64,000 bases of DNA, from assembly GCA_937873155.1 (NCBI GenBank), contig CALMVZ010000027.1, forward strand, positions 1 to 64,000. The letters run 5' to 3'. A program made the position numbers and the translations under genes. The notes under the pieces were generated by a model. The model did no database searches and had not been told where the DNA came from. It saw only the letters and a list, made by a program, of their open reading frames with translations. Position 1 is the stretch's first letter; each line of letters starts with the position of its first letter. Positions 16,262 through 38,863 of the stretch are shown here, in pieces. The stretch comes from an uncultured Bacteroidota bacterium (GTDB taxonomy: Bacteria > Bacteroidota > Bacteroidia > B-17B0 > Aurantibacillaceae).

Positions 16262-17509
16262 TTATCTGGACTGTGCTAAGCTTTTCTTTTCAGCTTTAAG
16301 TTCGGAAATACTTTGCGCTATTTCTTCACCTACCAGTGCAACAAATAAGTTGTTCTTTAAAATGTAATCTTTATTAGAGATGATATTTTCCAGAGCAACA
16401 TAACCAACAACATAGTTATAATTAGAACCTGAGTAACGCTCGGTAATCTCTTCAAAATTCAATTTCTCAAGATCGATCAAACGGTTGTAACGGAAATACA
16501 CTTTTACAAAAACATCGTTGGTGAACTGTAGGTTCGGATTCTGTGTTTGTTTTTTGTATTCGTATTTGTAGCCGTAAGATAAGGCAGAGATATCAGAAAG
16601 AACAGCCGCTCCTGTCGGATGGCCTCCGGCGCCTTTACCCTTTAAAAACTGTTCGCCTGAGAACTCGCCACCAACAATAGCACCGTTGAATTCATTATCC
16701 ACGCTAAATAAATGGTTGTGTGAATCCACATACTTAGGTAATACAAATATCGATACGTGATCTTTACTTACACGTTTGATAGTCGGGACTAACTTTATCT
16801 TGTATCCTTTTTCATCTGCGTAATTAATATCATTAGGGTGTAATGTTGTGATACCAATATTTAAAACATCTTCCGGTTTAGCGAAAACACCAAAAGCATG
16901 CAGTGCAATAATGATGGCTTTGAATTTCGGATCAAAACCTTCTACATCATTTGTCGGGTCACTTTCAGCAAAACCTTTTTCCTGCGCTTGCTTCAAAGCT
17001 TCCTGGTAAGATAATTTTTCACTGATCGTTTTAGTGAGAATATAATTTGTTGTACCATTGAAAATACCGGTTACTTTTTCGATCTGCTCGTTATCGAAAT
17101 ATTCTTCAAGAGTCCTGATGATAGGAATGCTGCCGCAACTTGAAGCTTCATACAGCAAGGATACATTATTCTTGTGTTGAAGGTCAAATAACTCCCGTAA
17201 ATGTTGCGCGACCATTTTTTTATTGGCAGTCACAACATGTTTGCCTTTACTTAAAGCATAACTTACAATGTTAAACGCTTCTTCTGCATCGTCGATCAAC
17301 TCAACAATAACATCTATCTCAGGATTATCAAGAATTTCGTATTTGTCAAACGTAAATACACCTTTATCAAGCGGACGCTGTTTAGTCTTGTTCTTAACCG
17401 CGATCTTTACGAACTCGGCTTTAAAACCTTTGCTGTTATTTAATACATGGTATAAACCCTGGCCAACACAGCCAAATCCGAATAATCCTATTTTTAAATT
17501 CTTTGCCAT
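16262..17509 (-). CDS. hom: homoserine dehydrogenase
   Basis: 415 residues. The NAD(P)-binding loop is GFGCVGQG (11-18). The catalytic domain has ASSCGSIPIIRTL, GIFNGTTNYILT, ESDPTNDVEGFDPKFKAIIIALHAFG and GKGAGGHPTGAAVLSDI. The C-terminal region from about 325 is shorter and more divergent than a standard ACT domain, so feedback control may differ. It reduces aspartate semialdehyde to homoserine. It starts two bases after the metX stop, so its product feeds MetX directly, under the same SAM riboswitch. Confidence 0.95.
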   Translation of the reverse strand: MAKNLKIGLFGFGCVGQGLYHVLNNSKGFKAEFVKIAVKNKTKQRPLDKGVFTFDKYEILDNPEIDVIVELIDDAEEAFNIVSYALSKGKHVVTANKKMVAQHLRELFDLQHKNNVSLLYEASSCGSIPIIRTLEEYFDNEQIEKVTGIFNGTTNYILTKTISEKLSYQEALKQAQEKGFAESDPTNDVEGFDPKFKAIIIALHAFGVFAKPEDVLNIGITTLHPNDINYADEKGYKIKLVPTIKRVSKDHVSIFVLPKYVDSHNHLFSVDNEFNGAIVGGEFSGEQFLKGKGAGGHPTGAAVLSDISALSYGYKYEYKKQTQNPNLQFTNDVFVKVYFRYNRLIDLEKLNFEEITERYSGSNYNYVVGYVALENIISNKDYILKNNLFVALVGEEIAQSISELKAEKKSLAQSR

Positions 17510-17511
17510 AA

Positions 17512-18567
17512 TTATATTGTTACTTTAATTTTTAATGTTTCTTTTTCTTTTAATGTATAAAATTGTTTGATGACCCCGGTCAGTTGTTTTGTTTCCAGTA
17601 AAAATCCATCATGGCCATAAAACGAATCTATCTCTTTATATTGAGCATTCGGAATGTGTTTTGCCAGAAATTGTTGTTCAGCTACCGGAAACAAAATATC
17701 AGAACTGATCCCGATCACCAACGTTTTTGTTTTAACTGTTGCCAGGGCGTGTTCCAAAGCTTCATTACGGTTTCTTGCTACATTATGTGAATCCATTGCT
17801 TCCGATAAACGGACATATGAATATGCATTGAAACGCTTCACTAATTTTTCACCTTGATAACGTTGGTAAGAAGAAGAAGCGAAATCTGAAGATTTATTCA
17901 GATTGGTTTCCTGTTGAGTTGAATTGTAAGTATTATAATTCCTGTAACTCAACAAAGCGATACTTCTTGCAGCCGCTAAACCTTTTTGTCCGCCATCTTC
18001 TTTATTGCTGTAATAAGTTCTGTCAGCTTTCACTGCCAGGCGTTGTGATTCATTGAAAGCAACCCCCCAAGGCGAATGTTTAGCATTGGTCGCCACAATA
18101 ATTAAATTCTCAACTAAGGTTGGTTTTTCAAAGACCCATTCCTGAGCAATTTGTCCGCCCAGGGAACCACCGATCAGCGTATGAATTTTTTCAATCCCTA
18201 AATGCTGACGTAAAACCTCCAACGTTTTAGCCTGATCACGAACTGTAATGTGCGGAAAAAAACTAAACCAGGGTTGTGTAGTATCTGAATTGATACTTAA
18301 TGGTCCGGTTGTCCCATAACAAGAACCTAAATTATTGGCGCAAACAATAAAATAATCTTTCGGGTTATAGAAGTCGTTGTCGCCAAACAATCCTTTCCAC
18401 CAATCAAACACATCGCTGTTGGCGGTTAATGCATGGCTAACCCAGATCACGTTGTTTTTTTCTTGATTCAGTGTGCCGTAAGTGTGGTAAGCAATTTCCA
18501 GTGAGGGCAATGATACACCGCTCTCTAATATGAACACCTTATTGTATTTAAAAACTTGTGTGCCCAT
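17512..18567 (-). CDS. metX: homoserine O-acetyltransferase
   Basis: 351-residue alpha/beta-fold acyltransferase. The nucleophile S135 lies in GGSLGGQ, the Asp in ISSDILFPV and H319 in YGHDGFLLE. HALTAN and NNLGSCYGTTGP are family blocks. It acetylates (possibly succinylates) homoserine, the entry to methionine by the sulfhydrylase route; the sulfhydrylase is not in this window. It starts one base after the stop of the 71-residue ORF and sits two bases before hom. Confidence 0.95.
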   Translation of the reverse strand: MGTQVFKYNKVFILESGVSLPSLEIAYHTYGTLNQEKNNVIWVSHALTANSDVFDWWKGLFGDNDFYNPKDYFIVCANNLGSCYGTTGPLSINSDTTQPWFSFFPHITVRDQAKTLEVLRQHLGIEKIHTLIGGSLGGQIAQEWVFEKPTLVENLIIVATNAKHSPWGVAFNESQRLAVKADRTYYSNKEDGGQKGLAAARSIALLSYRNYNTYNSTQQETNLNKSSDFASSSYQRYQGEKLVKRFNAYSYVRLSEAMDSHNVARNRNEALEHALATVKTKTLVIGISSDILFPVAEQQFLAKHIPNAQYKEIDSFYGHDGFLLETKQLTGVIKQFYTLKEKETLKIKVTI

Positions 18568-18568
18568 A

Positions 18569-18784
18569 TTAGTTGCTGAAAATAGTTTCGTTAAAAATTA
18601 TATTTCTTACTTCACCGCTATTCAGAATATTCACATCATTCACTATGCGTTTAGCTTTCTGATCAAATGGAACAGCAGTGCCTCCTCTTTGCGCAAAGCC
18701 ATAAGCAGATTGTATCTCCAGGAAATTCTTGTGATCAGTTTGACCGATCAGATTTATTTTGGTATTTATTTTAATTTTATTCAT
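18569..18784 (-). CDS. 71-residue protein of unknown function, first gene of the met operon
   Basis: I do not recognise this 71-residue basic, cytoplasmic-looking protein. Visible: LIGQTDHKNFLEIQSAYGFAQRGGTAVPFDQKAKRI, then an Asn-rich C-terminus. It has no signal peptide, membrane helix or Cys. The ATG follows a 7-bp hairpin by 15 bases, and its stop is one base before metX, so translation is probably coupled. Its place between a SAM riboswitch/leader ORF and metX argues for a real gene with a methionine-related or purely coupling role. It could also be a remnant of a larger met gene, though I see no homology to metY. Confidence 0.6.
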   Translation of the reverse strand: MNKIKINTKINLIGQTDHKNFLEIQSAYGFAQRGGTAVPFDQKAKRIVNDVNILNSGEVRNIIFNETIFSN

Positions 18785-18799
18785 TGTTGTATGTTTTGT

Positions 18800-18817
18800 C
18801 CGAAGGACTCCCTTCGG
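18800..18817 (-). repeat. 5'-UTR hairpin, copy 2 (CCGAAGG/CCTTCGG)
   Basis: A perfect 7-bp stem with a 4-base loop, 15 bases before the ATG of the 71-residue gene. It is the same stem as at 4651-4668 before the precursor peptide gene, with one difference in the loop (ATTC there, ACTC here) and similar flanks. Confidence 0.7.
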
Positions 18818-18912
18818 GATAATGTTTTTAATTTATTTGATGGTATATAATGCACCTAAAGCCCGGGGTTTTGTGCCGGGTTCAAACTTTTCTGATAAAA
18901 GTTCTTAAAACA

Positions 18913-19035
18913 CTAGCACATGCAGCAACAGCAGCACATACAACACATGAATGCGTGATGGATAACAGAATTAACACTCCGGCGTGCACAGGTGATGCCG
19001 CCGCTATTTGTTTTGTTTTGAATTGTTGTTTTCAT
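18913..19035 (-). CDS. Cys/Met-rich leader ORF after the SAM riboswitch
   Basis: A 40-codon ORF from ATG at 19035 to TAG at 18913. The first 29 residues are unremarkable (MKTTIQNKTN at the start, two His near the end), but the last eleven codons read MCCMCCCCCMC: eight Cys and three Met. It starts 10 bases after the 3' strand of the riboswitch P1 helix. Such a run at the very end of a short ORF ahead of metX is what a ribosome-stalling sensor for Cys or Met supply would look like. Downstream lie hairpins AACTTTT/AAAAGTT and CCCGG/CCGGG, but I see no U-tract terminator. The function is inferred; the ORF and its codons are seen directly. Confidence 0.7.
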   Translation of the reverse strand: MKTTIQNKTNSGGITCARRSVNSVIHHAFMCCMCCCCCMC

Positions 19036-19045
19036 TTTTTCGTAT

Positions 19046-19180
19046 TTAATTTATTTTTCCCTGCTCTTCCATCAGGGTAGGAGTTGGCACCTGTTTTCCA
19101 ATCTAGCCTTTCGGTTCGACTTTTAGTTGGTTGCCAGTGGGTCAGTGAGCCTATTCTCTCGCCACTTCTTAATAAACTAA
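19046..19180 (-). promoter_or_regulatory. SAM-I riboswitch aptamer
   Basis: On the minus strand a 10-bp P1 (TTAGTTTATT with AATAAATTAA, one G-U) encloses AAGAAGTGGCGAGAG, a GGC...GACCCACT-GGCAACC block (GGCAACC at 19129-19135), a P3 hairpin, GGTGCCAACTC (19081-19091) and a P4 hairpin CCCTGATGGAAGAGCAGGG. Order and conserved words are those of the SAM-I (S-box) aptamer. It precedes metX-hom, so S-adenosylmethionine should repress homoserine acetylation. No terminator follows P1; the next element is the Cys/Met leader ORF, so control may act on translation. Confidence 0.88.
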
Positions 19181-19210: not shown

Positions 19211-19243
19211 CAAATATAAATCATTAATGTAATAACTTCCAAA
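19211..19243 (-). promoter_or_regulatory. promoter of the met operon
   Basis: On the minus strand TTTG, a 21-base spacer and TATATTTG match the Bacteroidota promoter. Transcription would begin about 25 bases before the riboswitch P1 helix. Confidence 0.75.
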
Positions 19244-38640: not shown

Positions 38641-38863
38641 TTATACCTCTCCTCACAGGAGAGGTCGACTTGATTGGAATCAAGTCGGGTGAGGTCTTTC
38701 GGAACACAGGCATAATTAATACGACTTGCGATATCTCAGACATTGACTGACTCCCGGTCACATCGCCTCACTTTTGCGTGACGCAAAAGTAGCGCAGGAG
38801 AGAGAGTGTTGTTTTATCCCGGGATTTCATCCAGGGTTACCAATATTAAACCCCTCCGGGGTT
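38641..38863. repeat. mosaic of palindromic elements after folB
   Basis: Five separate inverted repeats follow one another: CCTCTCCT-cac-AGGAGAGG (38646-38664), CGACTTGATT-gg-AATCAAGTCG (38666-38687), ACTTTTGCGT-g-ACGCAAAAGT (38770-38790), a degenerate CCCGGG...CCAGGG (38818-38836) and AACCCC-ctcc-GGGGTT (38849-38863). No coding sequence. The mosaic fills the gap between convergent folB and the PpiC gene. Confidence 0.8.

Follow-up and report, generated by a model that had tools for sequence, protein, structure and literature searches.

The leader of a metX operon in an uncultured member of the Bacteroidota raises the question of whether a SAM riboswitch and a short ORF ending in Cys and Met codons, placed one behind the other, form a single regulator. 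The initial annotation of this DNA had suggested that they do, with SAM as the first signal and charged Cys/Met tRNA as the second. Comparison with related genomes supports this putative arrangement, since the SAM sensor and the Cys/Met leader recur in series, at near-constant spacing, before sulfur-assimilation genes. As far as sequence comparison can tell, this composite, which joins two kinds of leader element already known, is real and conserved, and two-signal control of sulfur assimilation is its most likely role. The best explanation, to which a probability of roughly 0.7 is given here, is a two-input leader in series in which the SAM aptamer would gate a Cys/Met-sensing leader. The whole stretch of DNA that was analysed, 64,000 nt long, is called the window below.

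The metX locus

All parts of the leader and operon region lie on the minus strand of the window, which the initial annotation had left unstated. A promoter-like box, TATATTTG (19211–19218), fits by sequence the Bacteroidota −7 box TAnnTTTG and stands 32 nt before a SAM-I riboswitch aptamer (19048–19178), which scores 67 bits with the RF00162 model (gathering score 44.4, E = 2e-13). Folding carries the P1 stem out to about 19180/19046, in agreement with the extent of 19046–19180 first assigned to the aptamer. The conserved SAM-I core GGCAACC ... GGUGCCAA is present in the cmscan alignment and in alignment A1, a P2-loop pseudoknot (UAGG/CCUA) can be read by eye from the sequence, and the aptamer fold has a z-score of −1.6. 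The leader ORF (18913–19035) follows P1 at a distance of 10 nt in the fold of 19180–19036, as first reported, and of 10–12 nt overall. It appears in the ORF list, has counterparts in relatives, and runs for 40 codons from ATG to TAG with the translation MKTTIQNKTNSGGITCARRSVNSVIHHAFMCCMCCCCCMC. Its regulatory codon run, MCCMCCCCCMC (18916–18948), is seen in the translation and in the tails of related leaders; the last 11 codons hold eight Cys and three Met, and both the coordinates and the counts given initially are correct.

Several hairpins lie behind or at the end of the leader. The first, H1 (arms 1:2, 18916–18941), is made by the Cys codon run itself, with a fold of −12.2 kcal/mol and a z-score of −3.1. 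The AU-rich hairpin H2 (18884–18904) was found by folding and is conserved in aligned set A2; around it, the fold of 18925–18850 has a candidate pairing 2:3 (18873–18919) between GUGCU (18919–18915) and GGCAC (18877–18873). The GC hairpin H3 (CCCGG...CCGGG, 18862–18880), identified from the sequence and from folds in relatives, is the candidate 3:4 and has a weak U tract. A further hairpin with arms of 7 pairs (18800–18817, −11.8 kcal/mol, z −2.5) precedes a conserved 71-codon ORF (18569–18784), whose stop codon is one base ahead of the metX start. The gene metX, for homoserine O-acetyltransferase (17512–18567), matches TIGR01392 (E = 2.6e-104) with 349 bits, under the model cut-off of 500, and is followed by hom, for homoserine dehydrogenase (16262–17509), which matches PF00742 and is over the cut-off of NF004976. 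The hairpins and met genes of the initial annotation are all present, but the 71-codon ORF between them had gone unmentioned.

This small ORF begins 128 nt after the leader stop in the window, where it has no match in Pfam or NCBIfam. Its relatives, with the consensus ...AQRGG...RLVSDVNxLTSxExKxLIFS..., stand at 40 of 48 leader loci, and in 38 of these 40 family loci the spacing from the leader stop is 93–175 nt; a rule-based search did not detect it behind the leader at the other 8 of 48. The structure predicted for the protein from a 37-row alignment is poor (mean pLDDT 68, pTM 0.32) and has three helices. Elsewhere in the window, 38643–38696 on the plus strand is a borderline match to whalefall-1 RNA, with 37.1 bits against a gathering score of 37.

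Conservation within the family

Among 87 genomes of the window's GTDB family, 77 have a match to RF00162. There were 130 matches in total, from which 92 loci were analysed, including the two of the window's own genome, and 38 were left out (33 of a long kind of 160–180 nt and 5 others). Aptamers were located with a covariance model built from 20 family loci, ATG ORFs were sought up to 200 nt downstream, and for the family counts a leader was called Cys-rich if it had at least four Cys in twelve codons. With gene kinds assigned from short sequence motifs rather than from profiles (12 of 161 loci unassigned), a Cys-rich leader stands behind 47 of the 50 metX- or metY-linked aptamers of the family sample (35/38 for metX and 12/12 for metY) and behind none of the 42 aptamers before metH, methyltransferase, metB-like, or unassigned genes. 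The three exceptions are L017, which is masked with N, L070, which has three Cys, and the metX locus L045, from which the run has seemingly been lost. The second SAM-I aptamer of the window's own genome (L002, contig C11) is 173 nt long and stands before a methyltransferase-like gene, as judged by motif, with no Cys leader.

A DNA pattern for CCCxMC followed by a stop codon, searched without reference to the aptamer, occurs in 30 of 87 genomes against 3 of 87 for the reversed control; a SAM aptamer is present at 29 of the 30 such loci, the exception being L155. Loss of the Cys/Met run from relatives had been named at the outset as an observation that would count against a sensing role, and the run proves to be conserved, though patchy beyond one family. 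The ORF resembles a leader peptide: it is short, and its run of codons that specify the product amino acids is kept in relatives. The tests of spacing, codons, pairing, and terminators described below used leaders with an ATG no more than 90 nt from the aptamer and at least three Cys in 12 codons.

The aptamer and the start of the leader

The distance from the end of P1 to the leader ATG is 12–14 nt in 39 of 48 family leaders and 3–15 nt in the remaining nine. All 16 loci apparently outside the family, which were found through the Cys-run DNA pattern first and two of which share an identical leader, have an in-frame ATG and an open frame 4–10 nt past the model end. Upstream, 46 of 48 leader loci have TAnnTTTG within 75 nt of the aptamer, 27–37 nt before it (shuffled expectation 4.0), and the box also occurs at 84 of 111 other aptamer loci.

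Shine-Dalgarno sites are absent from Bacteroidota mRNAs, and initiation in Flavobacterium johnsoniae is favoured by A at −3, −6, −12, and −13 together with an unstructured start region (PMC6847099, in part). Relative to the leader ATG (n = 48), adenine occupies −11 in all 48 leaders, −3 in 46, −12 in 44, and −6 and −13 in 29, although the outer positions coincide with the aptamer's own consensus. Other SAM-I riboswitches have the ribosome site built into the 3' side of P1 (PMC2258182, in part). Since the 3' strand of P1 in the window reaches from about −20 to −13 relative to the leader ATG, and given these rules of initiation, the anatomy suggests that P1 formed with SAM would mask the start region of the leader. 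Control of the leader start by P1 is thereby moderately supported.

The aptamers of L012, L013, L015, and L031, which stand before metH, have ACCAACC or CCCAACC ... GGUGG(G/U)AA in alignment A1 instead of GGCAACC ... GGUGCCAA; this swap of base pairs in P3 looks compensatory.

Terminators and RNA pairing behind the leader

No classical terminator had been recognised at the locus initially, and none of canonical form is found with 6 of 8 T required; with the requirement relaxed to 5 of 8, the Cys-run hairpin of the window itself scores as a terminator. Canonical terminators near the leader end occur at the frequency expected by chance (2 of 48 leaders against 1.6), so a canonical terminator behind the leader is rejected, while a looser T tract gives 11 of 48 against 5.0. 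Within 140 nt of P1, terminators are found at 11/11 metB/C-like and 32/79 metH-linked aptamers (0.0 and 0.6 when shuffled) and at 2/50 leader-class loci. One of these two, L228, is a metB-type locus placed in the leader class by the rule, and the terminator of the other, L064, is the Cys-run hairpin itself with U residues.

In 16 cluster representatives the RNA downstream of the leader is more folded than shuffled sequence, with mean z-scores of −1.6 to −1.8. RNAalifold, applied to 19 related leaders, pairs the leader end UGCUA with a UGGCA some 45 nt further along, so that the AU-rich hairpin lies inside; with two more pairs, this helix is incompatible with the Cys-run hairpin as well as with the GC hairpin, an exclusion also seen in classical attenuators. 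The 2:3 duplex averages −6.6 kcal/mol in the 16 representatives and a weaker −5.5 kcal/mol in shuffles (p about 0.007; p 0.96 for a control stretch), and a similar pairing is kept with changed letters in L034, L052, L056, L057, L071, and L072. The pairs of 2:3 and H2 are conserved in aligned set A2, with 93% of cells paired against at most 63% in slid versions; their covariation in A2 is no higher than that of shuffles. At single loci, 2:3 reaches p < 0.05 in 6/48 family leaders (mean z −0.9) and 1/18 outside (mean z −0.4), and the stretch 18925–18850 of the window folds no better than shuffles (z −0.7). These results argue weakly for a pairing switch as the final step. A choice of codon order in the Cys run that favours H1 was also considered and is unsupported by codon permutation in the cluster representatives (p 0.41); over all 48 leaders, which are related to each other, p is 0.005.

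Proposed mechanism and alternatives

Under the two-input reading, P1 would form when SAM is high, and its 3' strand, lying over about −20 to −13, would suppress initiation at the leader ATG. When SAM is low the leader would be translated, and a ribosome short of charged Cys-tRNA would stall in the C-terminal Cys/Met run; a shortage of Met-tRNA would act likewise in metX and metY leaders. The third step is the least certain. The stalled ribosome would hold the Cys-run hairpin (1:2) open, and the freed leader end, UGCUA(A/G), would pair with the downstream GGCA (2:3) and prevent the GC hairpin (3:4), so that the operon is expressed. If the leader is not translated, or if the ribosome runs quickly to the stop codon, 2:3 would be unavailable and expression would be low. 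Overall, the operon would be expressed only if SAM is low and Cys/Met is low as well. The 3:4 state might act by non-canonical or Rho-dependent termination or, alternatively, through an effect on translation.

The sensing could also be linked to the operon in a way that makes the 2:3 and 3:4 pairings irrelevant. It is possible, and is put forward here as a tentative alternative, that Rho-dependent termination or transcript decay is coupled to the leader: a ribosome stalled in the Cys run would shield the RNA past the stop codon from Rho or RNases, while SAM would remove the ribosome and expose this RNA. The chance frequency of canonical terminators near the leader end is consistent with such coupling, as is the stretch of 93–175 nt that separates the leader stop from the conserved small ORF at nearly all family loci that have one, and the same idea has been put forward for mycobacterial Cys leaders (PMC1262725, in part). 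However, neither the folded RNA downstream of the leader nor the 2:3 element, which is significant in the family, is needed by this explanation.

The conserved 71-codon ORF suggests another link, in which the stalled or terminating ribosome would alter folding or re-initiation at this ORF and the operon would be controlled at translation. Its relatives are present at most leader loci and the window copy ends directly before metX; a riboswitch acting through a uORF and re-initiation is known for ppe2 of M. tuberculosis (PMC11260477, in part). The 128 nt from the leader stop to this ORF in the window are far for termination and re-initiation of the ppe2 kind, though, and the small ORF was not detected at 8 of 48 loci, which makes translational coupling rather unlikely.

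Distribution beyond the family

The combination of SAM aptamer and Cys-rich leader is apparently not confined to one family. A scan of 84,980 species genomes of the GTDB genome collection for CCCCMC followed by a stop codon gave 50 stretches, of which 34 lie behind a SAM-I aptamer (model R1), 18 in the window's family and 16 apparently outside. The 16 comprise eight records of Pontibacter and one of Botryobacter, all nine of which we take to be of Hymenobacteraceae type, together with Solitalea agri, Mucilaginibacter rivuli, Parachryseolinea silvisoli, and four MAGs (two Crocinitomicaceae, one Flavobacteriales, and one Bacteroidales). The genes behind these outside leaders, listed for all but L128 and L129 (the L129 stretch is cut off), were assigned by sequence motif as metX at L097 and L123 and as metY at L095, L102, L109, and L138; at L104, metY is followed by a cystathionine beta-synthase homologue. 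The leader stands before cysH in six Pontibacter records and in Botryobacter, which adds cysD and cysN. Individual targets of this kind are cysH-cysD-cysN at L119 and cysH at L105 and at L240, the last of these from the class-wide sample below.

Among the remaining pattern matches, L111 is cut off at the end of the locus, and 11 of the other 15 were scanned against Rfam without a match. Several of these matches without an aptamer (Mycoplasma, Thorarchaeota, and others) are probably due to chance. Cys leaders without an aptamer occur near metY in L125, from a MAG named Chitinophaga pinensis, and in L103, from a Bacteroidota MAG. L117, from Chitinophaga vietnamensis, also has a Cys leader without a SAM aptamer. 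A Herbinix MAG (L116:2825–4249, minus strand) has an ORF ending in MCCSCCCCMC, with no SAM aptamer. A transporter gene of 440 codons, assigned to the DctA/GltP group below the model cut-offs, follows 81 nt later, and the ORF is possibly a Cys leader that serves a cystine transporter.

A class-wide sample of 296 genomes has the CCCxMC tail pattern in nine (reversed control 1), six of them in the window's family. The loci of the other three (L242–L244) have no convincing aptamer, with one match at 15.6 bits. From the same sample, 69 aptamer loci were taken among the matches listed, namely the first 29 of the list and another 40 chosen to spread over families: 44 of the 69 stand before metH, a Cys-rich leader is found at one (L240, before cysH), and none of the four metX- or metY-linked aptamers is followed by a leader with at least four Cys in 12 codons. 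These counts and the outside loci together indicate that aptamer and leader are joined often in one family, rarely in the class-wide sample, and at scattered places elsewhere in the phylum.

Codon content and metabolic context

Selection appears to act on the end of the leader. The last 14 codons are 21% Met against 0.4% in the body of the ORF, and have a mean of 6.5 Cys, a number that also reflects the rule by which leaders were selected. Mismatches in the last 11 codons are most frequent at the third codon position (0.39, 0.36, and 0.55 at positions 1, 2, and 3), whereas codons 2–12 have 0.52, 0.53, and 0.54 and coding constraint is not visible. Between L066 and L067, two near relatives of the window, the leaders are distinguished by an in-frame insertion of 42 nt. 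In favour of the 2:3 pairing at the leader end, TGC is used for the last Cys in 38/44 cases against 120/268 elsewhere in the run (p 1.6e-7, with related sequences included). Overall, comparative sequence evidence provides strong support for the anatomy of aptamer and leader and for selection on the Cys/Met run.

Conservation of the tail, and the fact that an eight-Cys run could bind metal, would also suit a functional small peptide that binds metal or senses redox state, with the riboswitch merely placing it in the Met regulon. Such a peptide is very improbable: codons 2–12 are without coding constraint and the leader varies in length, the tails are tied to Met and Cys genes, with a Met content that tracks the gene controlled, and the Cys leaders near metY in L103 and L125 have no riboswitch. 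Although AT-rich leaders commonly hold short ORFs, an ordinary SAM riboswitch followed by a meaningless Cys-rich frame can be dismissed on the family counts (47/50 against 0/42), the reversed control (30/87 against 3/87), and the 34 of 50 pattern matches behind a SAM aptamer.

For the two-input leader, the presence of codons for both amino acids may be explained by the metabolism of the cell. Encoded in the window's genome are a full-length homologue of cystathionine beta-synthase (489.8 bits against a cut-off of 510), a cystathionine gamma-synthase/lyase-like enzyme over its own cut-off, and an O-succinylhomoserine sulfhydrylase-like enzyme below its own. No serine acetyltransferase (CysE) is over the cut-off in this genome (best 47.5 bits) or in any of the 87 family genomes, five of which have weaker matches. 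Homocysteine is therefore the probable source of Cys as well as of Met, and since it comes from the MetX branch, MetX would be upstream of both amino acids, which would explain codons for both.

The tails also differ with the gene behind them: on average, metX and metY leaders of the family have 3.0 Met in the tail, and six Pontibacter cysH leaders have 1.0 Met and 7.0 Cys. On balance it seems likely that the SAM-I-gated Cys/Met leader is a two-signal regulator present across several orders of Bacteroidota, which would act as an AND gate on metX, metY, and cysH-cysD-cysN with a tail tuned to the gene, Cys and Met for homocysteine synthesis and Cys for sulfate reduction. The modules also occur apart, as an aptamer with a terminator at metB/C- and metH-type genes and as a Cys leader alone near metY.

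Comparison with known systems

The initial annotation knew of no described system of this kind. That holds for the combination, since no report of a SAM riboswitch with a Cys/Met leader was found among the top matches of searches in mainly open-access literature, which is not proof of absence, but both halves have described relatives (PMC1262725 and PMC11260477, each in part). Clues to leader-peptide attenuation before amino-acid operons come from a Flavobacterium transcriptome, with Cys and SAM unnamed in the part of the paper cited (PMC9723704), and sORFs in long 5' UTRs of Bacteroides resemble leader peptides (PMC7366714, in part).

The aptamer itself is a standard SAM-I (S-box) riboswitch, RF00162, and stands before Met genes here as elsewhere; the difference is that P1 would cover the start of a Cys/Met leader ORF and not that of a biosynthetic gene. 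Classical amino-acid attenuators (trp, his, and others) share with it a leader ORF with regulatory codons and, possibly, the 1:2 / 2:3 / 3:4 geometry. Here, however, a riboswitch would decide whether the leader is translated, and a clear terminator is absent. The mgtL leader of mgtA in Salmonella, with proline codons and a response to Mg2+, is similar in bringing together a responsive RNA and a codon-sensing leader, but the signals and the phylum are different and there is no SAM aptamer.

Candidate Cys leaders lacking a terminator have been described in Mycobacterium and Propionibacterium acnes, in front of cys operons, and in Bifidobacterium longum, in front of cbs (Seliverstov 2005, PMC1262725, in part). 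These polycysteine leaders of Actinobacteria share with the present ones a Cys run near the stop codon, a position before sulfur genes, and the lack of a conserved terminator, while the leaders described here lie behind a SAM-I aptamer, have Met codons added before metX and metY, and belong to another phylum. The mycobacterial Cys leaders were reportedly named cysteine-responsive attenuators by Canestrari in 2020, in a paper whose title is said to refer to a leaderless ORF, starting at the 5' end of the transcript. The ORF described here is not leaderless in this sense, as some 130 nt of aptamer precede it and a promoter-like box lies a further 27–37 nt upstream.

The nearest parallel to the gating step is in M. 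tuberculosis, where a B12 riboswitch controls translation of the uORF uPPE2, which is needed for ppe2 expression (Kipkorir 2024, PMC11260477, in part). Dependence of an operon on riboswitch-controlled translation of a uORF is what is proposed here as well. The uPPE2 system differs in having a B12 aptamer and termination-reinitiation over an AUGA overlap, and the part of the paper cited does not mention a regulatory codon run; the window has 128 nt between the leader stop and the next ORF instead of an overlap. Compared with all of these, the Bacteroidota leader would unite two classic senses of mRNA leaders, a metabolite aptamer and a ribosome reading charged tRNA, in a fixed order in one leader, and the aptamer would, unusually, act on the start of a leader ORF, and this in a phylum without Shine-Dalgarno sites. 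Such a composite predicts that codons are tuned by the gene controlled and would suggest how some Bacteroidota combine SAM with the supply of Cys and Met.
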